Positions 28,757 to 50,882 of a stretch of 52,613 nt of DNA are shown here, piece after piece. The notes below the pieces were generated by a model. The model worked only from the letters and a program-made list of their open reading frames with translations, searched no databases and was not told where the DNA came from. Source of the DNA: an uncultured Actinomycetes bacterium (GTDB lineage Bacteria > Actinomycetota > Actinomycetes > UBA12327); the NCBI GenBank assembly GCA_903920865.1, contig CAIXNN010000073.1, forward strand, positions 1 through 52,613, in the 5' to 3' direction. Position numbers and translations under genes: made by a program. Numbering within the stretch: the stretch's first letter is position 1; each line of letters begins with the position of its first letter.

Positions 28757-29266
28757 ATGAACTCAGGACAGGGCACCCCGGTTTCGGCTTCTCGCGCACG
28801 TCTTGCGCATGTCATGCAAATAACTGACACGAACATTCATGGAAATATCCATGGTGGGGTGATCATGAAACTTGTTGATGAGGCCGCTGGGGCGTGCGCT
28901 CAGCGTCATTGTCGTGGCGGCCGAGCGGTGACGGTGGCGATGGACGAGATGGTCTTATCAGTGCCAGTGCATGTGGGTGACCTGGTTACCGCTTATGCAT
29001 CAGTTAATGGAACAGGCAAGACGTCAATGGAAATTGGCGTGCGCGTCACCGCTGAGCGCTTCGATGGCTCAGTTACTGCACCGGAGCACGTGGCCAGTGC
29101 CTATCTGGTCTTTGTTGGCATTGATGAGAACCAGCGCCCGATGGCCGTTCCTGCGGTCATTCCTGAAACTGATGAAGATCGTCGCCGCAATACCGAGGCC
29201 GATATTCGCCGTCAATCCAGACTTGACCACCGAGCAGCTATTGAGGCCTCGCGGCAACTGCGTTAG
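28757..29266 (+). CDS. Acyl-CoA thioesterase (hotdog fold, YciA/BACH type)
   Basis: A 169-residue hotdog protein that hydrolyses acyl-CoA to free acid and CoA. The family opening is ITDTNIHGNIHGGVIMKLVDEAAGACA, containing the acidic catalytic residue in the long helix, followed by VTVAMDEM and VHVGDLVTAYASV strands. The charged C-terminal tail is typical of the class. It starts at ATG 28757, 18 bp after the acyl-CoA dehydrogenase, so the two are probably one operon in acyl-CoA turnover. The stop TAG interlocks with the convergent LCP gene's stop at 29263-29266. Confidence 0.9.
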   Translation: MNSGQGTPVSASRARLAHVMQITDTNIHGNIHGGVIMKLVDEAAGACAQRHCRGGRAVTVAMDEMVLSVPVHVGDLVTAYASVNGTGKTSMEIGVRVTAERFDGSVTAPEHVASAYLVFVGIDENQRPMAVPAVIPETDEDRRRNTEADIRRQSRLDHRAAIEASRQLR

Positions 29267-30867
29267 GTGCAGGTTGTATCGGCTGCCGAGATTGATTTCA
29301 CGGCAGACTTTGGCGTGGCAGTGGAGATGACCACGCGCGTTGCTCCACTCCAGGTTGAACCAACGACCACCTGGAACGTGGTCCCTAGTCCGGTGACAGC
29401 CAGTGTGGTTGCATCGGGAAGTGCTGCTTGAAGTGTTTTGAGTTGGGCAGCATTTGATGGGTCGTATTTGATCACTGTGCCGGTTTGGCCGGTGACATCA
29501 GCATTCTTGGCTGGACCGGCCATCCCGAATCCGATACGTGCAAGATCATTAGCGGCTTTGGCACCTAAGCCTGCGACACCGGCCCCATTGAGGACCTGCA
29601 CCTTGATCAAGCCCGGCGGAATGGTGGCTTTAACGGCCGGTGGCTTGGGCACGACCGGTTCGTCATTGCGAAGTTTGGTAAATAGCTCGGTTGATTTCGG
29701 ACCGCTCCACAAAACAGAAGATCCAACACCTGGAACTCGGTAGTTGTCGTTAGAAAGTGGAACCGTCAAAAATTGAATTTGGTCGGCTTGAACATTTCGA
29801 AGGCGGTTAGCCAAATTCAGGATCGCTTTTTGGTCGAGCTGAGTATCTGTTGTCACTGAGGCCAACGCCGCATCAAGGAAAGCATTGAGCTTGAGTGGGT
29901 TTGTCAGGGTTTGTGCACTGAGCGCTTTGCGCGCCACGGAACCGATAAATGCTTGTTGAGCCCTGATCCGGCCGAGGTCTTGATCAGCGTAGATATGACG
30001 GGCTCGCACATAGGCCAAGGCTTGTGCTCCGTTGAGTAGGTGCTTTCCCTTAGACAGCTTCAGGCCACTGTCCTTGTCGTTGACAGCCGTTGCCACACAA
30101 ACCTGGGCACCCCCGATTGAATCAACAACTTTGACAAACCCGGCGATATTGACCTCAACGTAGTGGTCAATCTTCAGTCCGGTGTTGGCCTGAATAGTGC
30201 GAATGGTCAGCGTGGGACCGCCGTAGGAAAACGAAGCATTGATCTTGTTCTTTGATGCTGAATGCTTCTTTCCGTTCTTATCTGTGTAGGCCGGAATGCT
30301 CACGTAGGAGTCGCGGGGGAAGGAGACCAACGTGACCCGAGAGTTATCAGCTGAGATGTGCATCAAGATCATGGTGTCCGAGCGGGCACCTTGGTCCTTA
30401 CCCGTGGAAAGTTTGTTGCGCTGGCCGCGGGTGAGTCCTAACCGCGAATCAGACCCCACGAGCAAGATGTTCAGCGGAGCTCCGGGCTCGGGCGCTGCGG
30501 TGCGATCGCCAACGCCGGCGAAGACATCTTGTTTTGTGATTTTTCCTGTGTAGTTGTTCAGGGCGGTGTAACCAATCCCGCTCACACCCAAAATGATTAA
30601 GGCTGTGATTCCTGAGATCCAGCCGATGATCCGGCGGTAGTTGGGGCCTGTTTTTTTAGGCGCAGGAGCACGTGGGGATAGTTGCGGCGGAAGGCTCTCG
30701 CCAGTGTTGCCACCTGAGTCGGGGCGGAAGAAGTCGTCGTAGCCGCTCACTGGGGTATCCCATTCATGAGGGTTTGGACGAAGTTCAGGCCCGGCTGGTT
30801 CATATGGGTAATCGTAGAGATCTATTTCACGCAGTAACAGCGTGGGCGCGCCGGGCTGTAGGCACAC
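29263..30867 (-). CDS. LytR-CpsA-Psr (LCP) family protein
   Basis: About 534 residues. A Pro-rich cytoplasmic N-terminus, one membrane helix (IIGWISGITALIILGVSGIGY), then the extracellular LCP domain with the polyprenyl-phosphate-binding blocks LLVGSDSRLG, RSDTMILMHIS, LVSFPRDSYV and YVRARHIYADQDLGRI, and a C-terminal LytR_C domain (VQVLNGAGVAGLGAKAA). LCP enzymes transfer lipid-linked wall polymers onto peptidoglycan or other acceptors, which fits the polysaccharide locus beginning here. The start is uncertain: GTG 30867 is my choice; the frame is open to 30948 and a later GTG would remove the Pro-rich arm. It diverges from the GT2 gene, with 22 bp between the chosen starts. Confidence 0.9.
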   Translation of the reverse strand: MCLQPGAPTLLLREIDLYDYPYEPAGPELRPNPHEWDTPVSGYDDFFRPDSGGNTGESLPPQLSPRAPAPKKTGPNYRRIIGWISGITALIILGVSGIGYTALNNYTGKITKQDVFAGVGDRTAAPEPGAPLNILLVGSDSRLGLTRGQRNKLSTGKDQGARSDTMILMHISADNSRVTLVSFPRDSYVSIPAYTDKNGKKHSASKNKINASFSYGGPTLTIRTIQANTGLKIDHYVEVNIAGFVKVVDSIGGAQVCVATAVNDKDSGLKLSKGKHLLNGAQALAYVRARHIYADQDLGRIRAQQAFIGSVARKALSAQTLTNPLKLNAFLDAALASVTTDTQLDQKAILNLANRLRNVQADQIQFLTVPLSNDNYRVPGVGSSVLWSGPKSTELFTKLRNDEPVVPKPPAVKATIPPGLIKVQVLNGAGVAGLGAKAANDLARIGFGMAGPAKNADVTGQTGTVIKYDPSNAAQLKTLQAALPDATTLAVTGLGTTFQVVVGSTWSGATRVVISTATPKSAVKSISAADTTCT

Positions 30868-30889
30868 ATTGCCGGTACCGTCTGTGGAC

Positions 30890-31891
30890 GTGCAGAGTAG
30901 TAATTCAAGGCTGTGGCCGAGTGTGAGCATTGTCATGCCTGTGCTCAACGAGGAACTGCATCTGCAAGAGGCCGTTGAGCGGGTGCTGGCTCAGGATTAT
31001 CAAGGGCAATTAGATGTTGTTTTAGCCTTGGGACCTTCTACCGACGCCACTGATTCGATCGCTGCGCAATTAACCGCTACCGATCCGCGAGTGCGCACTG
31101 TGTCAAATCCAACCGGGCGCACAGCTGCTGGTTTGAACGCGGCAATTGCTGCTGCGAATGCGGAATCTGAGTTCATCATTCGCGTTGACGGTCACGCGAT
31201 GTTTCCGACGAACTACATTTCAACGGCAGTTAAGACTTTGCAGGAAACTGGTGCTGACAATGTCGGTGGTGTCATGGCTGCAGAAGGATCGACTGCCTTT
31301 GAGCGGGCTGTTGCGTGCGCTATGCGCTCCAGCCTGGGGGTTGGCGCAGCTGCTTTTCACGTGGGCGGCCAATCCGGCCCGGCTCCCACGGTGTATTTGG
31401 GAGCCTTTCGTCGCAGCGCATTAATTCGAGTCGGTGGTTATGACGAACGATTTGTGCGCTCACAGGATTGGGAAATGAATTTTCGGATCCGACAATCCGG
31501 CGGACAGGTGTGGTTCACCCCAGAGATGGAAGTCAGCTATCGGCCTAGGCCGAGCGTTGCCAAACTGGGTCGGCAATATTTTGAATACGGTCGTTGGCGA
31601 AGAGTAGTTATGCGCCGGCATCGCGGCACTGCGTCTTTTCGTTACTTGGCTCCGCCTGCCCTTGTGGTCGCACTTGTGCTCGGAGTTGTGGTGGGCATCG
31701 GCTGGTGGCCGGTGGGCTGGCTAGTCCCGGTTGGTTACGCGGCAGCTGTCGGCATCGGTGGTTTGTGGATTGGGCGCCGGCAAGGCCTTGCAGTTGCTTT
31801 GACTGTGCCGGTTGCACTTGCCACCATGCATTGTGCTTGGGGTGCAGGATTTCTCAGCTCACGCATTCGGGTGAGCCAGGATTCTTTCTAG
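30890..31891 (+). CDS. GT2 glycosyltransferase (ExoA-like) with C-terminal membrane region
   Basis: A GT-A fold family 2 transferase of about 333 residues, resembling succinoglycan ExoA. SVSIVMPVLNEE opens the nucleotide-binding domain, RVDGHAMF is the DxD-equivalent, SQDWEMNFRIRQSGG supplies the catalytic acid region, and FEYGRWRR matches the RxxRW-type motif. The last 85 residues hold two to three hydrophobic segments (PALVVALVLGVVVGIGWW and after), so it acts at the cytoplasmic face of the membrane on a lipid-linked acceptor. GTG 30890 is chosen (TACCGT eight bases upstream), but GTG 30923 is also possible. Its end overlaps the convergent GT4 gene by 33 bp. Confidence 0.88.
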   Translation: MQSSNSRLWPSVSIVMPVLNEELHLQEAVERVLAQDYQGQLDVVLALGPSTDATDSIAAQLTATDPRVRTVSNPTGRTAAGLNAAIAAANAESEFIIRVDGHAMFPTNYISTAVKTLQETGADNVGGVMAAEGSTAFERAVACAMRSSLGVGAAAFHVGGQSGPAPTVYLGAFRRSALIRVGGYDERFVRSQDWEMNFRIRQSGGQVWFTPEMEVSYRPRPSVAKLGRQYFEYGRWRRVVMRRHRGTASFRYLAPPALVVALVLGVVVGIGWWPVGWLVPVGYAAAVGIGGLWIGRRQGLAVALTVPVALATMHCAWGAGFLSSRIRVSQDSF

Positions 31892-32944
31892 AGCCTGTGC
31901 GAACAGGGGGCCTTGGCTTGTCCAGTCGTAGCTGCGTAGCGCTGCATCATGTCCAGCGCGTCCAAGTTCTTTGCGGCGTGTCTGATCATTTTTCAAACTT
32001 AGGATAGCCGCCGCCGCTGCTGCTGGATTTTCGAAGGGAACAATCAGCCCGCACTGTGCATCGTCAATGATGTCGATGGCTACCGGCAACGGCGTTGTGA
32101 TCACTGGAATGCCGTGCGCCATGTACTCGATGATCTTGGTGGGTTGTGAGTGGCGGTAATTGGGTTCATCGTGAAGTAGGCACACACCCGCGATCGCTCC
32201 ATCTAGCATCCCAAGCGCCTGATCATTGGGAACAAATCCGTGGGCGATCAGCTCACCTGCATCATGGGCCTGTCTGACTTGCTCAGCCACGCTGGGATGG
32301 ATGGGACCGATGAGTTCAACGCGAACTTGCCTGCCAAGTGTGCGGGCCATCTCAATCAGATCAAGAGCACCTCGCTGCTGTGTTACAGCTCCGAGGTAGA
32401 CCACGCGCTCAGCCGCAGATTCGCTAATCGTCTCGGGGACCCAGGTTGTGTTGGGGACAACGACCCCCAATTTTTTAAATCGGGCTTGGTAGGAGGCTTC
32501 AGCAAAGATCAAATGCACATGTGAACTAGCCCAACGCTCTGCCAGAGTGACCAAGCCAGCGGCGAGTGGACGAGCAAATGTGGGAATCCAAGCCTTCATG
32601 GACACAGCAGAGGCAGTATCTTCGTGTACGTCCCAAATGACCGGCGCCGTTTGTATCCCGCGTATTGCTAAGAGCAGTTCTGGATCATGGATCAGGATCA
32701 GATCGAAGTCATTGCCGCAGCTTTTGAGCAAATCGCGTGCCGCTCGTCTGGCTGCACCGCGAGAGCGAGCGCTGGCCCTTGGTAGATCTATTGCGGTTAC
32801 ACCGTCAGCGGGCTGGGCATCAAATGCGCTAAAGGGGGCAGCAAGGCTGACGTGGTGACCTGCGTTGATCAGAGCCGGGATTTGTCGGTGTGAAATCCGT
32901 GCATCACCTGGATGATGCACGATGGTGACAACCAGGACCTGCAC
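31859..32944 (-). CDS. GT4-type glycosyltransferase
   Basis: A 361-residue GT-B glycosyltransferase. The N-terminal half (MQVLVVTIVHHPGDARISHR) is the acceptor domain. The C-terminal half has the family 4 donor site: VVYLGAVTQQRG, then HSQPTKIIEYMAHGIPVITTPLP with the conserved Glu, and GLIVPFENPAAAAAAI. The opening HHPGDARI is typical of transferases adding amino or uronic sugars in exopolysaccharide clusters, but the sugar cannot be assigned. GTG 32944 lies five bases after the stop of the ABC ATPase gene, so it is the last gene of the minus-strand export operon. Confidence 0.88.
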   Translation of the reverse strand: MQVLVVTIVHHPGDARISHRQIPALINAGHHVSLAAPFSAFDAQPADGVTAIDLPRASARSRGAARRAARDLLKSCGNDFDLILIHDPELLLAIRGIQTAPVIWDVHEDTASAVSMKAWIPTFARPLAAGLVTLAERWASSHVHLIFAEASYQARFKKLGVVVPNTTWVPETISESAAERVVYLGAVTQQRGALDLIEMARTLGRQVRVELIGPIHPSVAEQVRQAHDAGELIAHGFVPNDQALGMLDGAIAGVCLLHDEPNYRHSQPTKIIEYMAHGIPVITTPLPVAIDIIDDAQCGLIVPFENPAAAAAAILSLKNDQTRRKELGRAGHDAALRSYDWTSQGPLFAQALERILAHPNA

Positions 32945-32949
32945 GTTAA

Positions 32950-33744
32950 TTACTTCTCAACGATGGCTTCGTAGGCGTCAAGTACCTCATTGACATCGCC
33001 ATCCATCTTCATCGCTCCTGCATCGAGCCAAATGGCCCGGTTGCACGTTTCTCGAATGACACCCAATGAGTGGCTAACCAGAAAGACCGTTCCAGCTTGG
33101 TCTCTCAAGGCCCGAATCCGCTCTTCGCTCTTGCGGCGGAACTCAGCATCACCGGTTGCAAGGGCCTCATCGATCAACAGCACATCGTGTGAAACCGAAG
33201 CCGCGATGGCAAATCGAAGTCGAGCACTCATACCTGAGGAGTAAGCATTCATCGGAAGCTCGACAAAGCTTCCAATACCAGCAAAGTCCACGATGGAGTC
33301 AAAGTTTTCGCGAACCTGTGTTGGAGTCATGCCCATGGCCAAGCCACCAAGCACAATGTTTTGTTCACCACTGAGGGAGTTGATCAGTGCGGCATTGACT
33401 CCAAGTAGCGATGGTTGGCAGTCGGTGAAAACGGTTCCCTTTTCCGGTGGAAGTAAGCCGGCGATGGCCCGCAGTAGCGTGCTCTTTCCGGATCCGTTGC
33501 GGCCGACAATCCCGATGGCATCGCCGTGATTGGCAACAAAGGTCACGCCTTGGATTGCTTTGATCTCACGTAAACCGGGAGCATTCTTGCGAGTCAAGAG
33601 GCGACTAAGGGCAGAGGCGCCATCGTTCTTGGCACCGGCAGGTTTTGGACCCATAACGCGATAGGTGACGTAGAGGTCGTCAACGATGACCGTGGGTTTT
33701 CCTACCGAGTCAGGATTAACCCGCTGAGTTTCAGCCGCGGCCAT
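32950..33744 (-). CDS. Polysaccharide/teichoic-acid export ABC transporter, ATP-binding subunit
   Basis: A 264-residue ATPase of the Wzt/TagH/KpsT group. GRNGSGKST is the Walker A, YSSGMSARLRFAIA is the signature, VLLIDEAL is the Walker B, and VSHSLG holds the switch His. It powers export of a lipid-linked polymer through the permease encoded just upstream. Its C-terminal end follows soon after the nucleotide-binding domain, so it lacks the carbohydrate-binding domain of Wzt from O9a-type systems. ATG 33744 is preferred because GGAG lies seven bases upstream; the upstream GTG/ATG in frame would lie well inside the permease. It overlaps the permease end by 14 bp. Confidence 0.93.
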   Translation of the reverse strand: MAAAETQRVNPDSVGKPTVIVDDLYVTYRVMGPKPAGAKNDGASALSRLLTRKNAPGLREIKAIQGVTFVANHGDAIGIVGRNGSGKSTLLRAIAGLLPPEKGTVFTDCQPSLLGVNAALINSLSGEQNIVLGGLAMGMTPTQVRENFDSIVDFAGIGSFVELPMNAYSSGMSARLRFAIAASVSHDVLLIDEALATGDAEFRRKSEERIRALRDQAGTVFLVSHSLGVIRETCNRAIWLDAGAMKMDGDVNEVLDAYEAIVEK

Positions 33745-34612
33745 AGCGTGACTCCGCTCGCCAGAAGAAGATGAATCCACCAATGAGCGGCACGATGGCC
33801 CAGGCGATGGCCAAGTACCAGTTCCATACAGGCGTATTGGTCTGTGCCGTATTCAATAGCGCATCTCGAGCAAGTTGGATGTACACAGCAGCCGGATTTG
33901 CTTCGAGCAAGATGGTGATAATCGGGTGGCCATCATGATGCTTAACAAAATCGCTGATCAGGTACATCACTCCGGATAGATACATCCAGATGCGCAACGC
34001 AAACGGCAAGAACTGTGCAACGTCTCGAATTTCAGCGGTAAGACGGGCAAACACCAAGGCAATCCCTGCGCTGAACATCAACTGGAGCAAGATCACCGGA
34101 ATGAGCAGAAGCCATTGAGCCGTTGGGGCTTCTCCGGTTAACACGACCAGTACTGCAAGAACGATCAAGGACGTTCCGGTCTTTACCAATTCCTCAATGA
34201 CATTGGCGAAGGGCAGGACGGCGCGCGGAAAGTGCAACGCGCGCACGAGGCCGAGGTTGCCACTGATCGATCGTGAGCCGGCCATGATCGTTCGACTCGA
34301 AAAAGCAAAAATGAAGACCCCGGTTAACAAGAAGGCGATGTAGTGCTCAATCTTCTTGCTCTGGCCCAAGATGACACCGAAGACGAGGTAGTACACCCCG
34401 GCGTTCAAGAGTGGATTGAGTACTTGCCACAGCTGCCCTAAGCGCGATTCAGCGTTCTCGGCTGCAATGCGACTGCGGGCAAAGGTCCAGATAAAAAATC
34501 GGCGTTCCCACAGGGCTTGCATGTACGCCTTGAGGGCTGGTTGGCGCCCGATTGGCGTGAGGCCAAACTCTGCTGCCATGGCAGCTGGTGCGCTGCGATC
34601 AATCGCGGTCAC
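33731..34612 (-). CDS. Polysaccharide/teichoic-acid export ABC transporter, permease subunit
   Basis: A 293-residue ABC-2 type permease (Wzm/TagG). After about 50 cytoplasmic residues with the typical amphipathic region RFFIWTFARSRIAAENAESRLGQLWQVLNPL, six hydrophobic segments follow, the last ending in FFWRAESRYGRG. It forms the membrane channel for export of an undecaprenyl-linked polymer. GTG 34612 overlaps the stop of the upstream dehydrogenase (GTGA), and its own end overlaps the ATPase gene, so all three are translationally coupled. Confidence 0.93.
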   Translation of the reverse strand: MTAIDRSAPAAMAAEFGLTPIGRQPALKAYMQALWERRFFIWTFARSRIAAENAESRLGQLWQVLNPLLNAGVYYLVFGVILGQSKKIEHYIAFLLTGVFIFAFSSRTIMAGSRSISGNLGLVRALHFPRAVLPFANVIEELVKTGTSLIVLAVLVVLTGEAPTAQWLLLIPVILLQLMFSAGIALVFARLTAEIRDVAQFLPFALRIWMYLSGVMYLISDFVKHHDGHPIITILLEANPAAVYIQLARDALLNTAQTNTPVWNWYLAIAWAIVPLIGGFIFFWRAESRYGRG

Positions 34613-35886
34613 AGGCGCTCCACTGTGGGTCCTTCAGCTTTTCCACGAGTATCAAGCAAGAGCGGTGCGTTCTTGGCCACCACATCAAGATCCATAGTGG
34701 AGTGATTTTGAACCAAAATCGCGATGTCGCAATTCTTAAGGCCGCTGACTAGGTCGTCAGCGCGGGTGGTGGCCACACCATCGACGTGCCAATTGGTCAC
34801 ATGGGGATCAAAATAAGAAACCTTCGCGCCAAGGGATGCAAGCTGTTGTGCAAGTGGTTCTGCTGGAGATTCGCGTTGGTCTGCAATATCGGGTTTGTAG
34901 GTGACACCAAGGATGAGCACTGTCGAGCCATTCATGGGCTTTGCTGCAGTGTTCAACATGTCTTGTGCCCGGTGCGTCACATAGGCCGGCATCGAATTAT
35001 TCGTGGCTTGGGCTAGTTCAATAAATTGCGACGGCGCACCGAGTCGAGCGCGCACCTGATAGGACAAGTACATCGGGTCGATGGGGATGCAGTGGCCACC
35101 CACGCCAGGACCTGGATAGAAGGCTTGAAAACCAAAGGGCTTGGACTTAGCGGCTTCAATTACGTCCCAAAGATCAATCCCGAGTTCATGGCAGAACTTG
35201 GCCATCTCGTTGACCAGACCAATGTTGACCTGGCGGTAGGTGTTTTCAAGCAGTTTGGCCATTTCGGCCTCGCGGGTACCTTTGGCCTCAACCACAGTGT
35301 CAACAAATTGGCGATAAAACGTAGCTGCTTTGGTCGTGCACTCTGGTGTGTGGCCGCCCACAACCTTGGGAGTGTTCTTCATGCCATAGACAGGGTTGCC
35401 TGGGTCAATGCGTTCGGGCGAAAAGGCCAGCGAGAAATCCTTACCGGCGATCAGTGAGGTTGCTTCTTCCAAGATGGGTCGCACTTGCTCATCAGTGGTG
35501 CCTGGGTAGGTCGTGGATTCAAGGACAACCAAAGTTCCCGGGGTGAGATGCTCAGCGATAGTGCGAATGGAGGTCAGAACTAATGTCAGGTCGGGGCCAC
35601 CATCGGCTCCCAACGGGGTCGGAACACACACGATCACCGCATCGGCCCGAGCGATGACAGATGCGTCACTGGTGGCACTAAAACCGGTGGCCAGCATTGC
35701 AGCGATATCCAGGTCAGTTAGGTCATCTACATGAGAGCGACCGGCGTTGAGTCCGTCAATGACACGCGGAACAACATCGAGCCCGGTAACGCGCAGTCCA
35801 GACCGGCAAGCCTCCTGAGCTAGCGGAAGGCCCACATACCCCAGGCCTATGACGACGAGATCAATGCGATCAGCACCGTTACTCAC
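34609..35886 (-). CDS. UDP-N-acetylhexosamine 6-dehydrogenase (WbpA/WecC type)
   Basis: A 425-residue NAD-dependent nucleotide-sugar dehydrogenase. GLGYVGLPLAQEA is the Rossmann motif, ESTTYPGTTDE and FSPERIDPGN follow, and PGPGVGGHCIPIDP contains catalytic Cys266. The FGFQAFYPGPG run before it resembles WbpA, which oxidises UDP-GlcNAc, more than Ugd; oxidation of UDP-ManNAc (WecC) is the alternative, favoured by the wecB homologue at 37721. Either way the product is an N-acetylated uronic acid. GTG 35886 follows the large GT4 gene after 21 bp in the same operon. Confidence 0.9.
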   Translation of the reverse strand: MSNGADRIDLVVIGLGYVGLPLAQEACRSGLRVTGLDVVPRVIDGLNAGRSHVDDLTDLDIAAMLATGFSATSDASVIARADAVIVCVPTPLGADGGPDLTLVLTSIRTIAEHLTPGTLVVLESTTYPGTTDEQVRPILEEATSLIAGKDFSLAFSPERIDPGNPVYGMKNTPKVVGGHTPECTTKAATFYRQFVDTVVEAKGTREAEMAKLLENTYRQVNIGLVNEMAKFCHELGIDLWDVIEAAKSKPFGFQAFYPGPGVGGHCIPIDPMYLSYQVRARLGAPSQFIELAQATNNSMPAYVTHRAQDMLNTAAKPMNGSTVLILGVTYKPDIADQRESPAEPLAQQLASLGAKVSYFDPHVTNWHVDGVATTRADDLVSGLKNCDIAILVQNHSTMDLDVVAKNAPLLLDTRGKAEGPTVERL

Positions 35887-35907
35887 TCAGGGTCTCCCTG
35901 GTCTCGA

Positions 35908-37650: not shown

Positions 37651-37684
37651 GTTGCGCTCTCCAAGGGTTGAGACCTGTTCAGCC

Positions 37685-37692
37685 TAGGATAG
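37685..37692. promoter_or_regulatory. Overlapping divergent -10 boxes between the GT4 operon and wecB
   Basis: On the plus strand TAGGAT (37685-37690) can serve wecB, whose message would have a leader of about 24 bases containing GAAAGG. On the minus strand TATCCT (37692-37687) can serve the GT4-export operon, with a leader of about 30 bases containing GGAGAG. The two boxes share four bases, so only one polymerase can open this site at a time. Confidence 0.42.
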
Positions 37693-37720
37693 GCGTAACT
37701 TCCTGCTACGAAAGGTCTCC

Positions 37721-41124: not shown

Positions 41125-43337
41125 CGCGCGCGCTGGTTTATGGAGATGTCAACTTAAACATCATTGATGGCTCGGCGATCTGGGCCCAATCAATGGTCGA
41201 AGCCCTTTCGCGAGCAGGCGTTGAGGTGACTCTGGTTTTGAAGGCGAAGATTAAGACGGGTCGCTTAGTCGATCCCATCGCTGCCATGGATGGGGTGCGA
41301 GTCATTCGCCCCTTTGAAGATGGTTTAGTCCGTGGTGGCGATTCAATGAATGCATCGCAGGCCGTCAAACTTATGAAAACGCTGGATGATCAAACGCCGT
41401 TTGATCTTGTGGTGATGCGGGGACTGCGTGCCGTAGATGCCGCCGTAGGGTCAGGACACTTTGATGGGCGACTTTGGACCTACCTGACCGATATTCCGCA
41501 AACGGTCACTGCTTTCGATCAAGCAGCCATTGAGCGGTTGGAACGCATCAGTGCGGCGAGTCGCTTCATGTTGTGCCAAACCGAAGAACTGCGATGCTTC
41601 TTAGAAAGTGCAGTTGATGCAGCCTGTGGTCGCAGTGTTATCTGGACTCCCTTAGTGCCTGAACTTGATTTCGCCTTGCCAGATCGTCCGAAGTTGGAAA
41701 ATCGAGCAGTCCGTTTGGTGTACACCGGCAAATTCGCGCCGCTGTGGAATACCTTGGAGATGACCTCATTGCCACAACGCTTAGCCGAGCGCTCGGTTGA
41801 GGCAGAGCTAAACATGGTCGGGGACAAGGTCCATGAAGTTCCAGCTGATCCGAGCTATTCATCACGCATGAAGTCAGCCCTTGAGTCCACTGAAGGTGTC
41901 ATCTGGCACGGCGGGATGCCACGTCAAGAGGCGATGAAGAAATCGGCGCAGATGGACCTGGGATTGTCCTGGCGTGATCCGGAAATGGATGCATCTCTTG
42001 AACTCTCGACCAAGGTTCTCGAATTTGGCGCCTTGGATGTTCCAGTGATCATGAATCGCACCCAAATGCATGAGGACCTGTATGGCATTGACTACCCACT
42101 GTTTGTACAAGGCGAAGATGATGTGGTCGATGCCATCGTGGGAGTAGTTCAAGATCCGCAGCTGTACGCACTTGCCCTTCAACGATGCCGGCAGGTGTCG
42201 GCGAAATTTTCAATGGCCGTTGCCGTGGAGCGAATGAAGCAATATCTCAATCGCGCACTGCCCCAGGGCAAAGATGTCGCCCCCGCCTTGGCCAATCGCA
42301 GTGAAAAGCTCAAGGTCGTCGTGGCCAGCCACGACTTGAAGTTCTTCTCCCGCATGTTGGATTACTTCCAAGCATTGCCTGAAATGGAAGTGCGCACTGA
42401 TCAGTGGTCGGCCCTATCGGTCCACGATCCTGCTCAATCGCAGGAAATGTTGGATTGGGCCGATGTGATCGTGGCTGAATGGTGTGGCCCGGTCGCGGTT
42501 TGGTATTCCCAGCGCAAGAAGCCTCATCAGCGACTGATTGTTCGCCTTCACCGCTTCGAGCTCGATGGCCCTTGGATCAAGGATGTTGACATCAACAACG
42601 TTGACCAATTGGTGTGCGTAAGTCCGTTCTATGCACAGCTCACCGCTGAAAAAAGTGGTTGGCCGAAGGAAAAGATTGTGGTTGTCCCGAACTGGGTGGA
42701 CTACGAGCAACTAGATCGACCGAAGTTGGCCGGGGCGCAGTTCCATCTAGGAATGATTGGTATCGCTCCGATGCGCAAACGCATGGACGTTGCACTCGAT
42801 GTGCTGGAAATTGTTCGCCGTCATGATGATCGTTTCATGTTGTTCGTTAAGACCAAGATGCCATGGGATTACTGGTGGATTTGGCGTCATGCAGAAGAGC
42901 AAAAGCATTACAACGAGATCTTCCAAAGGATCCAAACCAACCCATACCTACAAAATGCTGTGGTCTTTGATGACTTTGGTGGCGACGTGGCTGCCTGGCT
43001 GCGTCGGATCGGCTGGGTGTTGTCAACCTCGGACGATGAAAGCTTCCATCTAGCCCCGGCTGAGGGGATGGCCTCGCGCGCGGTACCTGCTCTGGTTCCT
43101 TGGCCCGGGTCGGACACGATTTATCACCCCCGTTGGATCGATGCAGATATTGAGGCCATGGCCGATCGGATTTTGACCACGGTGCGAGAAGGCCACTGGC
43201 TCGAAGAAGGGCAGAAAGCGCAGGATCACCTGTTGGCTTCGTTCCCTCTTGATGCTGTGTGTGGGACATGGACGTCGTTGTTACTGGAAAATATTTCGCC
43301 AGACACGGCTAACGGGACCCTAGCTCCGGCTCATTAA
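41121..43337 (+). CDS. Tandem GT-B glycosyltransferase (two GT4-like units)
   Basis: A 738-residue protein with two GT-B-like halves. The first, up to about residue 390, has RALVYGDVNLNIIDGSAIW, RLVYTGKFAPLWNTLEM and a donor region LELSTKVLEFGALDVPVIMNR with the expected Glu. The second, from about 395, begins afresh with KLKVVVASHDLKFFSRMLDY and contains IVRLHRFELDGPW, VVPNWVDYEQLD, HLGMIGIAPMRKRMDVAL and HLAPAEGMASRAVPALVPW. Each half looks complete enough to be active, so it may add two sugars in turn. ATG 41121 overlaps the upstream stop (ATGA). Its own stop interlocks with the convergent gene at 43334-43337. Confidence 0.83.
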   Translation: MTRALVYGDVNLNIIDGSAIWAQSMVEALSRAGVEVTLVLKAKIKTGRLVDPIAAMDGVRVIRPFEDGLVRGGDSMNASQAVKLMKTLDDQTPFDLVVMRGLRAVDAAVGSGHFDGRLWTYLTDIPQTVTAFDQAAIERLERISAASRFMLCQTEELRCFLESAVDAACGRSVIWTPLVPELDFALPDRPKLENRAVRLVYTGKFAPLWNTLEMTSLPQRLAERSVEAELNMVGDKVHEVPADPSYSSRMKSALESTEGVIWHGGMPRQEAMKKSAQMDLGLSWRDPEMDASLELSTKVLEFGALDVPVIMNRTQMHEDLYGIDYPLFVQGEDDVVDAIVGVVQDPQLYALALQRCRQVSAKFSMAVAVERMKQYLNRALPQGKDVAPALANRSEKLKVVVASHDLKFFSRMLDYFQALPEMEVRTDQWSALSVHDPAQSQEMLDWADVIVAEWCGPVAVWYSQRKKPHQRLIVRLHRFELDGPWIKDVDINNVDQLVCVSPFYAQLTAEKSGWPKEKIVVVPNWVDYEQLDRPKLAGAQFHLGMIGIAPMRKRMDVALDVLEIVRRHDDRFMLFVKTKMPWDYWWIWRHAEEQKHYNEIFQRIQTNPYLQNAVVFDDFGGDVAAWLRRIGWVLSTSDDESFHLAPAEGMASRAVPALVPWPGSDTIYHPRWIDADIEAMADRILTTVREGHWLEEGQKAQDHLLASFPLDAVCGTWTSLLLENISPDTANGTLAPAH

Positions 43338-44500
43338 GCCAAGCGGAGACGAAGCTCGCTGAAGAAGTGAGCACTGAGTGTGTTGGCATTGAATGCTTCG
43401 GCTCGCGCCCGAGCTGCAGCTCTGGCGGCCGGGTTGAGCAGGCGATCTGACGTTCGCATGGCGCGAAGCAGATCATCGCTATGTCCGGGATCAAAGGTGA
43501 CCGCAAAGTCTTCGGTAATGACTTCACGGGTGCTGCTCAGGGCTGGCACGATTGCCGGCAGACCAAAACTCATCGCTAACAACAGCACGCCAGAGTTTAA
43601 TGAGCGTCGATAGGGCAAAACAGCAATGTCAGCGGCATTTAAGTAGCGCTGCAGATCCACGTCGGAAACTCTCTCCGCGCGCAAATGCACGTATGGGTTC
43701 ATCTCGCATTGCACAAGCAGCTCATCGACCGAACCGTCAGCATCTGGCTTGCCTGCTACTACCAAAACCCGCTTACCAGGGTCTTCGGCTGACAAGACGT
43801 CAAAGGCTTGGAGTAGTTCGTCAAGTCCCTTGTAGGGCTTGATGGCACCAAGGAGTGTGTACACAATCTGATCTTCTTCAACTCCGATGTCAAAGCGCGC
43901 CTGTTGGCGAGAGACAAGATTTGGATAAGCATCGATGTAATTCGGGTGCGCGACATGAACAATTTTGCTCGCTGGGATTTCGAATTGGTCTGCAACAGCC
44001 TCACTGGTCGATCGAGTTAAGACGTGCACCACGATGGAGCGTTCAACAATCTCCTGTTGAAGGCGCGCCTCTAGTTCGGGAAACCGGCAGTCATGGGGCA
44101 AAACATTGTGGATGGTCCACACAATCTTTCCACCGGCTGCCACGAACTGGTCCAGTACATGAATGAATTGGGCCAGAGCAGCCCTTGCCTCAAGCTCGTT
44201 CTCAATTCCGCGTAGCACCTCCAGCGTCCAGTGAAGGTGCAAGATCGGGGTTGCTTGACCATCACATGCTGCGCGGAAAGTTTCAAAGTCTGCCGGGCTA
44301 CTGAGCGCCACGGGAGCAAACCCACTTTCCCATGCATCGGCGTACAGCAATGACTGATAGGGGTTTGATCGCGCGGCTGGCCAGTAGCCGAGTACTGTCG
44401 GGTTGTCAGCTTTACTTTGTTCAAGACTGCGCAATGCAGCTAACGTCTCAACGAGTACCCGACCGTCGTAGGGGGTGGCCCCTCTAATAGATCCGTACAT
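43334..44500 (-). CDS. GT4-type glycosyltransferase
   Basis: A 388-residue GT-B protein. The acceptor half contains HLHWTLEVLRGIENE and KIVWTIHNVLPHDCRFPELE, a block common in transferases of the GumK/mannosyltransferase sort. The donor half has YTLLGAIKPYKGLDELLQAF, LVVAGKPDADG, and NSGVLLLAMSFGLPAIVPALSSTREVI. The residue equivalent to the family Glu is less obvious here. The ATG at 44500 overlaps the preceding gene's stop by one base (TGATG), so it is coupled to the coiled-coil/TPR gene. The sugar substrate is unknown. Confidence 0.87.
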   Translation of the reverse strand: MYGSIRGATPYDGRVLVETLAALRSLEQSKADNPTVLGYWPAARSNPYQSLLYADAWESGFAPVALSSPADFETFRAACDGQATPILHLHWTLEVLRGIENELEARAALAQFIHVLDQFVAAGGKIVWTIHNVLPHDCRFPELEARLQQEIVERSIVVHVLTRSTSEAVADQFEIPASKIVHVAHPNYIDAYPNLVSRQQARFDIGVEEDQIVYTLLGAIKPYKGLDELLQAFDVLSAEDPGKRVLVVAGKPDADGSVDELLVQCEMNPYVHLRAERVSDVDLQRYLNAADIAVLPYRRSLNSGVLLLAMSFGLPAIVPALSSTREVITEDFAVTFDPGHSDDLLRAMRTSDRLLNPAARAAARARAEAFNANTLSAHFFSELRLRLA

Positions 44501-45516
44501 CAGTTGGCGCGCCCGTTAATTGCAGATTCAACGAGTTGAATGCACTCTTGAGCAGATTCCTGATCTGCTTCAAGTCCCCAGTTAGCCGAGTTCAAGTGCT
44601 GCACATTGCTGGTGGCGATGAGTCGGTCAACATCTGTAACTGGGGCCTGCTTTGTGGTTTGAATCTTTAGCACCACATGGTTGACCTGGGTTGAAGCAGC
44701 AAGTGCGCGGCCCAGACTTGCGGCTTCACAGGATGACTGCGTGATCACACTGACGATCACATTGGGGTTGAGCTCAGCGATTTTGCGGTTGATGCCGTTT
44801 GCTGAATCAGTTAAGACAAAGTCGCGAACCCCGCCGCCCGGATAATGGGGCGGCAACCCGTCCAGGACTTCAAAAACATCGCATTCCAAGCCCGCTATGA
44901 AGGCTTCTAGGAAGGGCGCAAGTTCTGTTGCGGATTCTGGTATGAGGACAACCGGATTTCCTTGCCGTGAGGAAATGTGGGCTGAACCAAGAACGGGAAG
45001 GAACTGGGGGTGCAGTGCTCGCAGCTGTCCGGCCAGGCGCGCGCGTCGAGCTCTAAACCGCGCTGATTGATCAAAGTGGGCCAGTTCAATGCAGTAACCC
45101 AACGCGTCCTTGAGGTGGCCCGACGATGCATTAAGGCCAATGAGAAGGTCAAGAACCTCCGGTTCGTCCGGACTTTGTTGATTGAGGTTTTGTGCTTCAA
45201 GAAGGGCATCAACAAGATTGCCTTCATCGCGCAATTGGCGAATCTTTCGTAGCCAGGGAGCAAGCAGGTTATTGGGCAGTTCGGGTTTGCTTGGTTTCTT
45301 TGCGGGGCGGACCAACTCCGTGGATGCTTTAACCAGGCCAACAAGGGCCTTCTTTTTTCCACCACGACGAAGTGTTTCGCCAAATCTGGTGGCCCGACGA
45401 CTGTGGAGAAGCTGTAATTCATAGCGGGTTCGCTCAAGGTCGACGCGCAGCTCTTCGGCTTCGGTTTCGAGCCGAGCCGCCTGCGTCGCGGTGGGGGTGC
45501 CTTTACTTGTAGCCAC
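44500..45516 (-). CDS. Coiled-coil/TPR-like protein of the polysaccharide locus
   Basis: A 338-residue protein I cannot assign to a named family. Residues 12-40 form a coiled coil, 44-70 a basic stretch (RFGETLRRGGKKKALVGL) like that in the 773-residue protein, 88-165 helices resembling TPR repeats, and 186-335 an alpha/beta domain that could be half of a GT-B fold or a pyruvyl/sulfotransferase-like Rossmann domain, without a catalytic signature I can name. It may be a scaffold for the GT4 coupled to it downstream. GTG 45516 is six bases after TACGGT with no Shine-Dalgarno. Confidence 0.78.
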   Translation of the reverse strand: MATSKGTPTATQAARLETEAEELRVDLERTRYELQLLHSRRATRFGETLRRGGKKKALVGLVKASTELVRPAKKPSKPELPNNLLAPWLRKIRQLRDEGNLVDALLEAQNLNQQSPDEPEVLDLLIGLNASSGHLKDALGYCIELAHFDQSARFRARRARLAGQLRALHPQFLPVLGSAHISSRQGNPVVLIPESATELAPFLEAFIAGLECDVFEVLDGLPPHYPGGGVRDFVLTDSANGINRKIAELNPNVIVSVITQSSCEAASLGRALAASTQVNHVVLKIQTTKQAPVTDVDRLIATSNVQHLNSANWGLEADQESAQECIQLVESAINGRAN

Positions 45517-45522
45517 CGGTTC

Positions 45523-45528
45523 ACCGTA
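45523..45528 (-). promoter_or_regulatory. Putative -10 box for the coiled-coil/TPR gene
   Basis: TACGGT on the minus strand is exactly six bases before the GTG at 45516, again suggesting a leaderless message. Confidence 0.45.
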
Positions 45529-45611
45529 TCGGCACCGCCGCCTGACAGCGGCTCACCACGACCTTAAGCAGGCACCTGAGGATGCCGATACCTGATCTAG
45601 AGGTGCCGTGA

Positions 45612-47483
45612 ATGAGCCGTAGTGAGCAACAGCCAAGGTCTGTCCGCCAACCGTGGATGGCCTTGATTTCGGCTGGACTCCTTACCTTGGTGATGGTGGC
45701 GCTGGCAGGCATTAGCGCTAGCCCAGCCCAAGCTGGAACCAGTTCCTTTGCCTGCTTGGGTGCCAACGGGGTGGGTTACACCCAAGGAAATACCCCGACC
45801 AATGTGATGGCGGGCAAGCTTTCAATTCCCGGTTTTGGCGTGACAACTATCGGCACCGGCGATATCAATTTTGTTGGACTCAATGCTGGCAAAGATCCCA
45901 CGTGGCAGTTGTGGTTTAACTCCCTTAAATGGCTAGAGCCGATGGTGGCCTCCTATGCAACGGGACAATCTGGCGGTGGTACCCATCTGAATCGGGCCAT
46001 GGCGATTGCCCAGGATTGGGTCACCACCTATCCGGAGTCAACGCCAGGTGCACAACCGGCGTGGAACGATCAGGCAACCTCACTTCGTGCACAAACGTTA
46101 GCGTGTATGGCGAAGTATCGAAGTGATGCATGGTTGCTCAGCGCCCTCGATGCGCACGGGCGCCATTTGGCAGATGCGCGGAATTATTCCGGCGACTGGA
46201 ACCATGGACTTGAGCAAAATATTGGGTTGTTAGCTGTTGCCTGCATTCGCGATAACTCACCTTGGCAATCCACCGCCCAGACTCGAGCGCACAACGCGTT
46301 GATTACCACCATTGATTCGCAGGGTGCATTCAACGAGCAAGCCCCCGGTTATGGTCCGTGGACGATCACGCGCTGGTGGACCATTGACGATGTCCTGACC
46401 ACTTGTGGGCTGCCTGCATTAACTGATTTGGCCCCGCGGCTTCAAAAGCTGGCAAGTTTTCTGGCCCAGGCCACTGCACCAGATGGCACGTTGACACAAA
46501 TCGGTGATACCTATGCCGAGCCAGTTCGAGCCGATGTTGCTGCTCAGTATCAGGATGTTCGCTATGCCGTCTCACAATCCACTGCCGGTGTGGCACCAAC
46601 CGATTCTGTTTCGATTTACAACGCAGGTTTTGTGTTTTCGCGGTCCGGATGGGGAACGCTGCGTCCATTTGCCAGCGAAAACTATTTCACTATGCGCTTT
46701 GGTCCGCGCCGTTATGCACATGGGCATTTTGATCACCTTTCGGTGACATGGTTTGCCCGCGGCCGCAAACTGCTTGTCGATGCAGGTCACTTTGGTTATA
46801 CAGCTTCGGCATACCGGACCTGGATTATCTCTGCTGCAGCACATAACACTTTGACAGTGCCCAGTGTGCCGCTTCGCACCTATGGGACCTCAAAACTTAC
46901 TCGCTCAAGTAATAATGCAACTGGACAGTTTTATGAAGTCAGTGATGATGCAGGCTCTGTTGGCGGTGCATATCAGGGGCTTGTTCGTACCCGTGGGGTA
47001 TTTGTATTACCCGATGCAAAGGCCATGGTGGTCCTGGATCGCACCAACTCTTCAAAGTTGCGATGGATGTACGCCGCTAAGGCAAAAGTGAAGACCAAGT
47101 GGTGGCACCTAGATCCAAGCTTTGCCTTAACGTCGGCTTCGGATTCGAAAGTCACGGCAGTATCAGGGTCAACCCAATTGAACGTTCTTCAAGTTCCATT
47201 GCCAGGCGAGCACCTGGCTAGGGGCTCGCAAAAGGTTGTCCGTGGTGCGAAAAGCCCTTACCAAGGGTGGGTCTCAACTGCTCAAAACCGAAAGGTCACC
47301 GCACTGGCTGTGGGTCAAACCACGACTGGTTCACGGAGTTTGTCGGTACTTGTGCCCGGCGCAGTGGGTCAGAGGGTTTGGGCCCAGGTCAAGCCCGTGG
47401 GTGGACATTTACGAGTAGATATCTACGTGGGTTCGACCAAATATTGTGTTTACATTTCTGCTGGTGGCGCCCTGTACCGGTAA
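45612..47483 (+). CDS. Secreted heparinase II/III-like protein 1
   Basis: A 623-residue exported protein. A signal peptide (about residues 10-41) ends at SPAQA. An alpha/alpha-barrel region follows, with SLKWLEP, WNHGLEQNIGLL and FNEQAPGYGPW (His and Tyr expected in the polysaccharide-lyase site). Then the beta-sandwich has HGHFDHLSVTWFARGRKLL and DAGHFGY, the metal- or substrate-binding His block of the heparinase II/III family. Members cleave uronic-acid polysaccharides by beta-elimination. ATG 45612 has AGAGGT about seven bases upstream. It is paralogous to the protein at 48433-50217: both also share a C-terminal YQGWV segment and end in a short beta-rich tail. The substrate is not known. 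Confidence 0.85.
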   Translation: MSRSEQQPRSVRQPWMALISAGLLTLVMVALAGISASPAQAGTSSFACLGANGVGYTQGNTPTNVMAGKLSIPGFGVTTIGTGDINFVGLNAGKDPTWQLWFNSLKWLEPMVASYATGQSGGGTHLNRAMAIAQDWVTTYPESTPGAQPAWNDQATSLRAQTLACMAKYRSDAWLLSALDAHGRHLADARNYSGDWNHGLEQNIGLLAVACIRDNSPWQSTAQTRAHNALITTIDSQGAFNEQAPGYGPWTITRWWTIDDVLTTCGLPALTDLAPRLQKLASFLAQATAPDGTLTQIGDTYAEPVRADVAAQYQDVRYAVSQSTAGVAPTDSVSIYNAGFVFSRSGWGTLRPFASENYFTMRFGPRRYAHGHFDHLSVTWFARGRKLLVDAGHFGYTASAYRTWIISAAAHNTLTVPSVPLRTYGTSKLTRSSNNATGQFYEVSDDAGSVGGAYQGLVRTRGVFVLPDAKAMVVLDRTNSSKLRWMYAAKAKVKTKWWHLDPSFALTSASDSKVTAVSGSTQLNVLQVPLPGEHLARGSQKVVRGAKSPYQGWVSTAQNRKVTALAVGQTTTGSRSLSVLVPGAVGQRVWAQVKPVGGHLRVDIYVGSTKYCVYISAGGALYR

Positions 47484-47582
47484 GGCATGTTCGCGCGATT
47501 GGGATCGCATCCTCTGGGCACCGACCGCGGGAGGATCAGTTTTGATTGCGCGTGGGATCTGCGGCCTTTCATCTTTTTCCAA

Positions 47583-47588
47583 TAGTGT
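47583..47588 (+). promoter_or_regulatory. Possible -10 box for the methyltransferase gene
   Basis: TAGTGT lies 26 bases before the GTG at 47615; transcription from it would give a leader of about 20 bases including AAAGGAGA. No convincing -35 is seen. The 131-bp gap before the gene contains nothing else I can name beyond a weak ATCCTC/GAGGAT inverted repeat. Confidence 0.35.
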
Positions 47589-47614
47589 GAAAGCACTTGG
47601 TCAAAGGAGAATTT

Positions 47615-48322
47615 GTGGCATCGCAGTGGGACTTGATTCAAGAGGTAATTCCAGCTGACCACGCGCGACAGGTTCAGTCCACGTACTACGTGGAAGAAGC
47701 GATGACCTCTGATAATCCCCCTGAGCTAGTGGTGGACCTTGGATGCGGTTTAGGTAAGACCGCCACACTTTTTCGACGCTTTGATCCAAAGGTTCGCTGG
47801 CTAGGAATTGACATCTCTGATTCACCTGAATCCCTGGCTCGGGAAAAAGTCACCGATGTGGTTCTGTATGACGGCGAGCATTTGCCACTGGCTAGCGATT
47901 CGATTCCCTTGATGTATTGCCATCAGGTGTTGGAGCATGTTCGTCGCCCGTGGATCACCATGGCTGAAGTGGCCCGCGCCCTGAAGCCCGGCGGTTTATT
48001 TATCGGAAGCACCTCACAATTTGAGCCCTACCACTCGTACAGCGTGTGGGGATACACCATGTTCGGCTTTAAGAATTTGATGGAAGATTGTGGTCTTGTG
48101 GTTGAGGAGTTACGGCCAGGAATTGATGGTGTCACCTTAATCAATCGAACCTATAACGGTCGCCGTCCGGAAGACAGTAAGTGGTTCGGACAAGAGTCCC
48201 CGCTGAATCAACAAATTGATGATTGGGGAAAATCAACGGGTCGGGGACCAAAATTGGTCAACAATCGCAAACTGGAATTCTGTGGTCAGTTTGCATTTCG
48301 AGTGAGTAAACCACTGAAGTAG
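47615..48322 (+). CDS. SAM-dependent methyltransferase (type 11)
   Basis: A 235-residue class I methyltransferase. VVDLGCGLGKTATLF (about 39-53) is the SAM-binding glycine loop, LGIDIS supplies the ribose-binding acid, DGEHLPLASDSI and YCHQVLEHVRRPW are the later family motifs, and LKPGGLFIGSTS completes the core. The acceptor cannot be told; sugar O-methylation or polymer capping would fit its place between two secreted lyase-like genes. GTG 47615 is chosen because AAAGGAGA lies four bases upstream; an in-frame GTG at 47597 would place the Shine-Dalgarno inside the gene. Confidence 0.88.
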   Translation: MASQWDLIQEVIPADHARQVQSTYYVEEAMTSDNPPELVVDLGCGLGKTATLFRRFDPKVRWLGIDISDSPESLAREKVTDVVLYDGEHLPLASDSIPLMYCHQVLEHVRRPWITMAEVARALKPGGLFIGSTSQFEPYHSYSVWGYTMFGFKNLMEDCGLVVEELRPGIDGVTLINRTYNGRRPEDSKWFGQESPLNQQIDDWGKSTGRGPKLVNNRKLEFCGQFAFRVSKPLK

Positions 48323-48420
48323 TTTGCCCGATGAGCTCAGATCGCCAATATCGGTTAAATCCGTTAAGTCTGTGAATTAGGTATGACCGATGACCCTTAC
48401 TTTCGGTGGACTGGCTTGGC

Positions 48421-48426
48421 TAATGT
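48421..48426 (+). promoter_or_regulatory. Putative -10 box for heparinase-like gene 2
   Basis: TAATGT is six bases before the ATG at 48433, in a 110-bp intergenic region with no Shine-Dalgarno. This is one of the clearest leaderless layouts in the window. Confidence 0.52.
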
Positions 48427-48432
48427 GAAAAA

Positions 48433-50217
48433 ATGGGACGCGGGGTGCGCATTGTGAGGTTTGGGGCAAAGTTCCTCGCCCTTTCGGTTGGGCTTATCTC
48501 AGTGGTTTCCGTCTTCGTGGTCGTACCTGCAGCTCAGGCTGCACAGACTCCACCACCGTGGACGTGCGGTTTCCTCAATGGTCTTGAACCAGCCAATCCG
48601 CCGGCGCAACTGCATGCTGGACACATCGACATTTTTGGCACTCAACTGGTGGCGGTGGGCGACCATATTGATTGGAATCAAAATTCAAATCTGACGATTC
48701 GCCTCTATCTGCAATCGCTTAAGTGGTTAGAGCCGCTGCTTACCAGCGGTACCCGGGATGATTTGGCTCTTGCGCAGAGTTTTATTCAGCAATGGGCGGC
48801 AGACAATCCTGCGGATGCTCCAGCTGATCCCTATGGCTGGACCGAACATGCGGTTGGACTGCGAGCTACGACGCTTGCATGTATGCGGGAGGTTGTTGGT
48901 TCACAAGTCTGGTTAGACACCATCATCGCGCAACATGTGAGCTGGCTTGCCAATGATCACCATTACGCGGGGGCTTGGAATCACGGTTTGACTGAAGATG
49001 CCGGCCTGGTGGGCGCGGCTTGCTCCATTGGCGATCTCACCGGCATTGCGCATGGCCAAGCTCGCGCGCAGGCATCGGTTGCTGTTGTAGTTGATGCTCA
49101 GGGGCTAGTCAATGAGCAAGCGGTCCGGTATCAAGATTACGTGTTTAGAATTCTCATTGGTCTTCGGTACGCCCTGCTCGCCTGCTCGCCGACGGAGCTT
49201 CCAACGGTGTTCAATCGAGTGGACTTAATGCCAGCAGTTACTGCTCAAATGGTGCAGCCTGATGGATCCTTTTGTGCACTTGGTGATACTGACGGGACCC
49301 CATCGGATTCTGATCGGTCCCCGATGGATTACGTGACCAGTTTTGGCACTGTGGGAACTCCACCGTTGACTCGCTATGGCGTGTATCCCGGTGGATTTGC
49401 TTTTGCTCATAGTGGCTGGGGTCTTACTCGTGATTTCGGCTCTGAGGATTTGTTGACTCTTCGATTCGGACCCGGCCGGATCATTCATGGTCACAATGAC
49501 CACACGTCCATTACAACCTTTGGTCGGGGGCAACCATTGCTGGTGGACTCCGGCTTTGGTGGATACGATTCTGGCGCGATGCGCGATTACTTGCGATCTG
49601 CGCAAGCCCACAATATGACCGTAGTTCCTGGTTTGACCTACCGATGGGCTCAGACAACCACACTTGTAGCACAGCGCATAACTTCAGTGGATGAGACGTT
49701 TGTTGTTTCGGATTCCCCCTATTCGGGGGTAAGCCGACGGCGAACTGTGTTCGCCTCCCATGACGTCCCTGTCACAGTTGTCGTGGACCACAGCTCCTCA
49801 ACAACCACGCGGACCTTTAATCAGTTGTGGCACATCAGCCCGAACTTTTCAGTCAAGGCAACAAGTGCCTACGGTGTTCGGTACCTGTCGAAGTCAGGTG
49901 GAACGAGTTTGTCTGTGTCAGCGATTCCATGGCCCGGTAGGACACGAGCCCGAATCAGCACCACCTCTGGTCAAACCAATCCATATCAGGGTTGGGTTGC
50001 CGCGCATTCAGTGATGGTGCCCGCGCCGGTAACTACCTTTGCATCGGTAGGTAGATCCCAGCAGCAAGTCATGCTGTCGGTTTCCTCTCGGCCGGGTGCG
50101 AAAATTTCCTGGACTATGAAGCCCTTTGGGCGAAGCGTGAATCAACTGCGTGTGCGAATAGATGGTCGAACTATCACTGTGAACATTTCGGCCTCGGGGT
50201 GGATTACCCGACTTTGA
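48433..50217 (+). CDS. Secreted heparinase II/III-like protein 2
   Basis: A 594-residue exported paralogue of the protein at 45612-47483. The signal peptide (about 1-36) ends at PAAQA. SLKWLEP, WNHGLTEDAGLVGAAC and VNEQAVRYQDYVF match the barrel motifs of the first copy, and IIHGHNDHTSITTFGRG with LLVDSGFGGYDSGAM matches its beta-sandwich His block. The AHNMTVVP and NPYQGWV segments are also shared. The order and spacing of the putative catalytic His and Tyr are kept, so both copies look functional. It probably acts outside the cell on an acidic polysaccharide. The stop lies one base from the stop of the convergent CoA-transferase gene. Confidence 0.85.
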   Translation: MGRGVRIVRFGAKFLALSVGLISVVSVFVVVPAAQAAQTPPPWTCGFLNGLEPANPPAQLHAGHIDIFGTQLVAVGDHIDWNQNSNLTIRLYLQSLKWLEPLLTSGTRDDLALAQSFIQQWAADNPADAPADPYGWTEHAVGLRATTLACMREVVGSQVWLDTIIAQHVSWLANDHHYAGAWNHGLTEDAGLVGAACSIGDLTGIAHGQARAQASVAVVVDAQGLVNEQAVRYQDYVFRILIGLRYALLACSPTELPTVFNRVDLMPAVTAQMVQPDGSFCALGDTDGTPSDSDRSPMDYVTSFGTVGTPPLTRYGVYPGGFAFAHSGWGLTRDFGSEDLLTLRFGPGRIIHGHNDHTSITTFGRGQPLLVDSGFGGYDSGAMRDYLRSAQAHNMTVVPGLTYRWAQTTTLVAQRITSVDETFVVSDSPYSGVSRRRTVFASHDVPVTVVVDHSSSTTTRTFNQLWHISPNFSVKATSAYGVRYLSKSGGTSLSVSAIPWPGRTRARISTTSGQTNPYQGWVAAHSVMVPAPVTTFASVGRSQQQVMLSVSSRPGAKISWTMKPFGRSVNQLRVRIDGRTITVNISASGWITRL

Positions 50218-50218
50218 C

Positions 50219-50881: not shown

Positions 50882-50882
50882 T

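Follow-up and report, generated by a model that had tools for sequence, protein, structure and literature searches.

Wall polymers built from N-acetylmannosaminuronic acid (ManNAcA) or 2,3-diacetamido-2,3-dideoxymannuronic acid (ManNAc3NAcA) are made by Micrococcus luteus and by Streptomyces. These teichuronic acids are the closest described counterparts of the glycan locus analyzed here, which lies on contig CAIXNN010000073.1 of an uncultured Actinomycetes bacterium (52,613 nucleotides, referred to in full as the window). A first-pass annotation of this DNA had stated that no such actinobacterial wall polymer was described, which the two examples contradict (PMC3005890, PMC13274773). The teichuronic acid of M. 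luteus (ManNAcA-Glc) is linked to peptidoglycan and contains 4-linked ManNAcA (PMC3005890), a linkage that a lyase can cut. It resembles the product proposed for the window as an actinobacterial wall polymer made from UDP-ManNAcA; the paper mentions no lyase and gives no genes, and the likeness is one of the polymer alone. The utr locus of Streptomyces griseus is, like the window locus, a variable cluster with a UDP-sugar dehydrogenase, a 2-epimerase, and several glycosyltransferases, and it differs between close species, but its polymer contains ManNAc3NAcA and is carried on wall teichoic acid, and no lyase is reported (PMC13274773). The utr locus also has aminotransferase, oxidase, and N-acetyltransferase genes. 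None of these three 3-amino genes is present in the window, and one partial search of the genome for the ManNAc3NAcA pathway enzymes returned only weak DegT matches.

Lyases encoded with synthesis genes have been described in Gram-negative bacteria. AlgL of Pseudomonas is a uronate lyase whose gene accompanies those for making its substrate; it clears stray alginate (PMC8829089). It belongs to another lyase family, however, and acts in the periplasm, and alginate is made and exported by machinery of its own. The heparinase-III-like PF07940 protein VV0358 of Vibrio vulnificus is implicated in capsule biosynthesis (PMC6037467), although it is a rare, strain-specific gene of a Gram-negative capsule and its role there is biochemically untested. 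The PL12 heparinases III (Pedobacter HepC and BT4657) share with the window lyases a full-length profile match, the fold, and the catalytic Asn, Tyr, and His. The identity to the PL12 structures is only 15–17%, however, and the window lyases sit in a synthesis locus, so that their substrate probably differs from that of PL12 heparinase III.

The locus is read here as an interchangeable cassette, very probably for a teichuronic-acid-like wall polymer, accompanied by accessory lyases that would act on the cell's own polymer in the manner of AlgL. A probability of about 0.5 is assigned to this reading. The arrangement is of the AlgL type if the lyases take the cell's own polymer, a step for which the odds are about even. 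The new element is the combination of lyases with an actinobacterial wall cassette; the polymer type and the placement of lyases in synthesis loci have the precedents given above.

The strain-variable cassette spans positions 31,892–50,218 of the window (18.3 kb). It contains a wecB/wecC-type UDP-ManNAcA supply, a Wzm/Wzt exporter, four clear glycosyltransferases in addition to the unassigned P773, and a methyltransferase. It also encodes HepA and HepB, two PL12-like lyases that are secreted (Table 1). The genes named in the first-pass annotation between 29,263 and 50,217 (LCP, Wzm/Wzt, wecB, dehydrogenase, glycosyltransferases, methyltransferase, and both lyases) were found where it had placed them, with Pfam and NCBIfam matches above the curated cut-offs. 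Two large proteins, P773 and GT738, had not been named.

The cassette borders were identified by comparison with relatives. The fixed flanks are GT2-LCP on the left and the coenzyme A (CoA)-transferase genes on the right. In G001, a genome of the same genus, the CoA-transferase genes abut the GT2 gene end to end, adjacent to coaB, and the start of the LCP gene falls at the contig end. A second G001 contig opens with the remainder of the LCP gene and is then collinear with the left flank of the window as far as purK. The cassette is missing from this site in G001, which is 60% complete, and a copy elsewhere is possible. In G002 and G004, also of the same genus, the same flanks border another glycan cluster with wecC, GT4a, a different wzm/wzt pair, and another type of wecB; the G004 cluster additionally has a GT28-like protein beside coaB. 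In G005, from another genus of the same family, the order P338-hepA-methyltransferase-coaB is as in the window, hepB is missing, and wecB-P773-GT738 appear on a separate contig. The ugd and O-acyltransferase genes, which had been listed with the set, were rejected as cassette members and assigned to the fixed left flank because G001 retains both without the cassette. The interval between the GT2-LCP and CoA-transferase genes (window 31892–50218; L133, L134, L136, L137, L139) is an exchangeable glycan site.

An attachment enzyme that stays in place while the neighboring polymer genes are exchanged is in keeping with variation of the coat under phage or toxin pressure. The exchange or absence of the cassette within the genus would also suit lyases directed at the coats of other strains, either to strip competitors or to clear away shed polymer with a receptor function, and the teichuronic acids of Streptomyces are toxin receptors that vary between species (PMC13274773). 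Such a target is nevertheless improbable: the window has neither a toxin or immunity gene nor an export partner dedicated to them next to the lyases, which move together with one cassette and do not belong to the fixed flank.

The earlier proposal of an N-acetyl-uronate wall polymer that is made in the cell, exported by an ABC transporter, and attached by an LCP enzyme is supported by the gene content, from which we infer the polymer chemistry and its attachment. The enzymes for an activated (amino)uronic acid are present, with WecB over its cut-off (306 bits versus 210) together with a dehydrogenase closest to UDP-ManNAc dehydrogenases. The best matches of the latter in the PDB are Cap5O (3ojl, 213 bits) and an archaeal UDP-ManNAcA dehydrogenase (4r16, 210 bits). 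The wecB gene is 80–81% identical in G005 and in G104, a genome of another family. Its ratio of nonsynonymous to synonymous divergence (dN/dS) is 0.06. Judged by these similarities, UDP-ManNAcA is the likeliest product of the supply enzymes. Both an ABC-2 permease and an exporter-class ATPase were found for the Wzm/Wzt pair; no C-terminal carbohydrate-binding domain was seen in Wzt. The LCP protein is 76–77% identical in G001 and G004 and is the only LCP of its own genome (1.68 Mb, 92 contigs), and therefore the exchangeable polymer is probably attached by this fixed enzyme.

In the proposed pathway, WecB and the WecC-type dehydrogenase would make UDP-ManNAcA, and a teichuronic-acid-like chain would be built from it in the cytoplasm on a lipid carrier by GT4a, GT4b, GT738, and probably P773. 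The chain would be exported by Wzm/Wzt and attached to peptidoglycan by the LCP enzyme. HepA and HepB would cut the 4-linked uronate of the same polymer by beta-elimination outside the membrane, and we infer that the purpose may be the clearing of unattached or over-long chains, or the release or remodelling of the coat.

The wecB, P773, and GT738 genes overlap stop to start (38803/38806 and 41121/41124), which points to an operon-like unit. P773 is 44–46% identical in G005 and G104; for GT738, the identity is 54–76% in G005 and across families f12, f16, f18, f34, and f38. The model of P773 contains a Rossmann-like N-terminal domain, a coiled segment, and a GT-B-like region at low confidence (predicted template-modelling score, pTM, 0.38). 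Its Foldseek matches lean to GT-B folds (exostosin/GT-B), as a hint only, and its glycosyltransferase sequence match is weak. Several families of Actinomycetia (f1, f12, f16, f18, f34, f38) were found to share a conserved core that consists of wecB-P773-GT738 with GT4b-wecC-GT4a (and wzt-wzm); partial cores are found in f26, in f27, and in f16 genomes with the lyase elsewhere. P773 and GT738, a pair of large unassigned glycosyltransferases that recur beside wecB in many Actinomycetia, look like the true signature of the pathway. The lyases were rejected as the defining feature of the cluster, the core being usually without them.

HepA and HepB match PF07940 (Hepar_II_III) with 59 and 52 bits, respectively, versus a cut-off of 24. 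No other PF07940 protein was found in their own genome, which argues against a chance pairing. In each, a hydrophobic N-terminal segment precedes an AQA site, and both therefore look Sec-secreted. A profile of 30 hepA homologues matches PL12 heparinase III (4mmi) over the full length with an E value of 7.6e-29. The AlphaFold (AF2) model of HepA, with a predicted local distance difference test (pLDDT) score of 87, is an alpha/alpha toroid with an antiparallel beta-sheet, a fold nearest to PL12, and ranks 1–5 of the Foldseek search are all PL12 (template-modelling, TM, scores of 0.60–0.69). The PL12 catalytic residues Asn240, Tyr294, and His424 (PMC12088678) align with Asn197, Tyr247, and His370 of HepA and with Asn183, Tyr233, and His352 of HepB. 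The three residues of HepA are invariant across the 30 homologues. Since the catalytic Asn/Tyr/His set is complete, both lyases should be competent for beta-elimination. The curated HepC model NF045572 is not reached (20.3 bits versus a cut-off of 600). This distance and the low identity are why the proteins are filed as PL12-like rather than as heparinase III, with the substrate left open.

The fold is also that of human dermatan sulfate epimerase 1 (6hzn), which is among the matches of the HepA model, and in alginate loci an epimerase is encoded alongside the lyase. HepA, HepB, or both could thus be uronyl C5-epimerases that alter ManNAcA in the finished polymer instead of cutting it. With PL12 lyases returned by the sequence profile and in all of the top five fold ranks, this activity is very unlikely.

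The hepA gene is 67% identical in the other genus, where the block P338-hepA-methyltransferase-coaB is kept. Between the two genera, the nonsynonymous divergence (dN) of hepA is 0.30 and the synonymous divergence (dS) is saturated, which indicates amino-acid constraint; with dS saturated, the dN/dS ratio is not computable for hepA, P773, and the methyltransferase. This constraint and the invariant catalytic residues leave little credence for the lyases being passive passengers, brought in by horizontal transfer and without function for the polymer, an explanation that the missing hepB of the G005 locus and the many lyase-free core copies would otherwise favor.

Homologues of hepA were found in 78 of the 346 genomes of the class. 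In a count compiled by hand, 12 of the 76 genomes with a lyase, from 6 families, have one no farther than 20 kb from wecB, versus about 1 expected at random in a 4-Mb genome. Of the 35 genomes whose lyase is strong (a score of at least 150 bits), 33 have a wecB gene anywhere, versus 127 of the 311 others (Fisher 3e-10, kinship ignored). Within f16, the lyase and GT738 seldom appear in the same genome. Given this pattern and the unweighted kinship, the co-occurrence of wecB and lyase is evidence for, though not proof of, a shared substrate.

The lyases could instead be nutritional, degrading foreign uronate polysaccharides from an incidental position in the cassette. The characterized PL12 enzymes of Bacteroidota are heparan lyases with a nutritional role, and most homologues in the class stand alone, outside wecB/wecC clusters; the loci examined with Pfam in f12, f13, and f16 (L036–L049) contain single genes for secreted PL12-like lyases in housekeeping surroundings, with gltX, dprA, or genes of pyruvate dehydrogenase or biotin carboxylase as neighbors. 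No GH88/105-type protein was found in the genome of the window, however, which speaks against growth on the lyase products, though other routes exist. The window contains no importer or sulfatase beside the lyases, the hepA-methyltransferase-P338 block is kept in two genera, and the linkage to wecB is above chance. A nutritional role is therefore considered unlikely.

Several observations weigh against the preferred reading of a wall-polymer cassette with lyases for the cell's own product. Lyase homologues in the class mostly lie apart from synthesis genes, and the majority of core copies have no lyase nearby. The lyases of the window and of the other linked loci are scattered on the tree rather than forming one clade, and so the linkage arose more than once or is easily lost. 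The nearest solved relatives of WecB are nearly tied, with UDP-GlcNAc3NAcA 2-epimerases at 290 bits and the UDP-GlcNAc 2-epimerase 4neq at 285 bits, and the exact sugar is left open because the former are among them. No WecA/TagO-type initiator for the lipid carrier was found: the only PF00953 (Glycos_transf_4) protein in the assembly is MraY (G000:C89, L169), no genome-wide search for PF02397-type enzymes having been made. Self-trimming by the lyases, as first suggested, remains plausible in view of the 12 linked genomes and the missing GH88/105 protein. The accompanying expectation that the lyases would co-occur with the synthesis genes is supported for wecB at the level of whole genomes, with kinship ignored, and in part contradicted by physical linkage.

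G104 has two lyase homologues in the neighborhood of an apparent sugar-nucleotidyltransferase gene and an LCP-like one (L070, C10:90001–102177), and the same genome has the core on another contig. A weaker lyase homologue in this genome (L151, C13, ~6.8–11.2 kb) lies at a distance of ~2 kb from CoA-transferase genes corresponding to the right flank of the window.

The genetics of actinobacterial teichuronic acids are poorly understood. No lyase of ManNAcA polymers was found in the literature, and we know of no enzyme that degrades actinobacterial teichuronic acids for the producer. HepA and HepB may, as a tentative proposal somewhat short of even odds, be the first lyases known for teichuronic acids and form a PL12-like branch directed at wall polymers that contain ManNAcA. 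The producer would supply them to control the length, shedding, or exchange of its coat, atop a widespread and uncharacterized actinobacterial pathway. If the lyases do cut the cell's own polymer, they would be a Gram-positive counterpart of AlgL and would serve as a tool for the analysis of these coats.

Table 1. Features of the cassette and its fixed flanks (window coordinates)
Feature	Position	Strand	Match or remark
LCP glycopolymer transferase with LytR_C domain, fixed flank	29263–30948	-	PF03816 2.2e-49, PF13399
Membrane GT2 glycosyltransferase, fixed flank, retained when cassette is missing	30842–31891	+	PF00535
GT4a, GT4-family glycosyltransferase, left end of cassette, core gene	31859–32944	-	PF13692 4.7e-15
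Wzt/TagH-type exporter ATPase	32950–33783	-	PF00005; best NCBIfam models are teichoic-acid/galactan exporters
Wzm-type ABC-2 permease	33731–34612	-	PF01061 2.9e-12; galactan_ABC_perm 1.5e-16
UDP-sugar 6-dehydrogenase, most like UDP-ManNAc dehydrogenase (WecC/Cap5O)	34609–35886	-	TIGR03026 4.3e-128
GT4b, GT4-family glycosyltransferase, ~180-residue N-terminal extension, core gene	35908–37650	-	PF00534 1.8e-34; TIGR04063 329 bits, below cut-off
wecB, non-hydrolysing UDP-GlcNAc 2-epimerase	37721–38806	+	TIGR00236
P773, 773 aa, core gene	38803–41124	+	no Pfam family over cut-off
GT738, two GT-B-type glycosyltransferase parts, core gene	41121–43337	+	PF13439 5.3e-10
GT4c, GT4-family glycosyltransferase, outside wider core	43334–44500	-	PF00534 3e-15
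P338, no family, helical N-terminal region, adjoins hepA in G005 too	44500–45516	-	homologue in L035
hepA, secreted PL12-like polysaccharide lyase	45612–47483	+	PF07940
S-adenosylmethionine-dependent methyltransferase, adjoins hepA in G005 (L035) too	47597–48322	+	PF08241 2.2e-16
hepB, second secreted PL12-like lyase, missing from G005 locus	48433–50217	+	PF07940 9.9e-14
Right flank, two CoA-transferase subunits (50219–50923 and 50883–51653)	50219–51653	-	PF01144; 50883–51653 in 6/6 genomes of the order

The LCP and GT2 open reading frames share 107 bp in a head-to-head overlap, and the main match of the LCP protein to G004 starts at residue 49; the annotated LCP start is probably too far upstream. 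Adjoining the right flank of the cassette, a secreted protein with a weak SpoIID match is encoded at positions 51880–52611 and runs off the end of the window.

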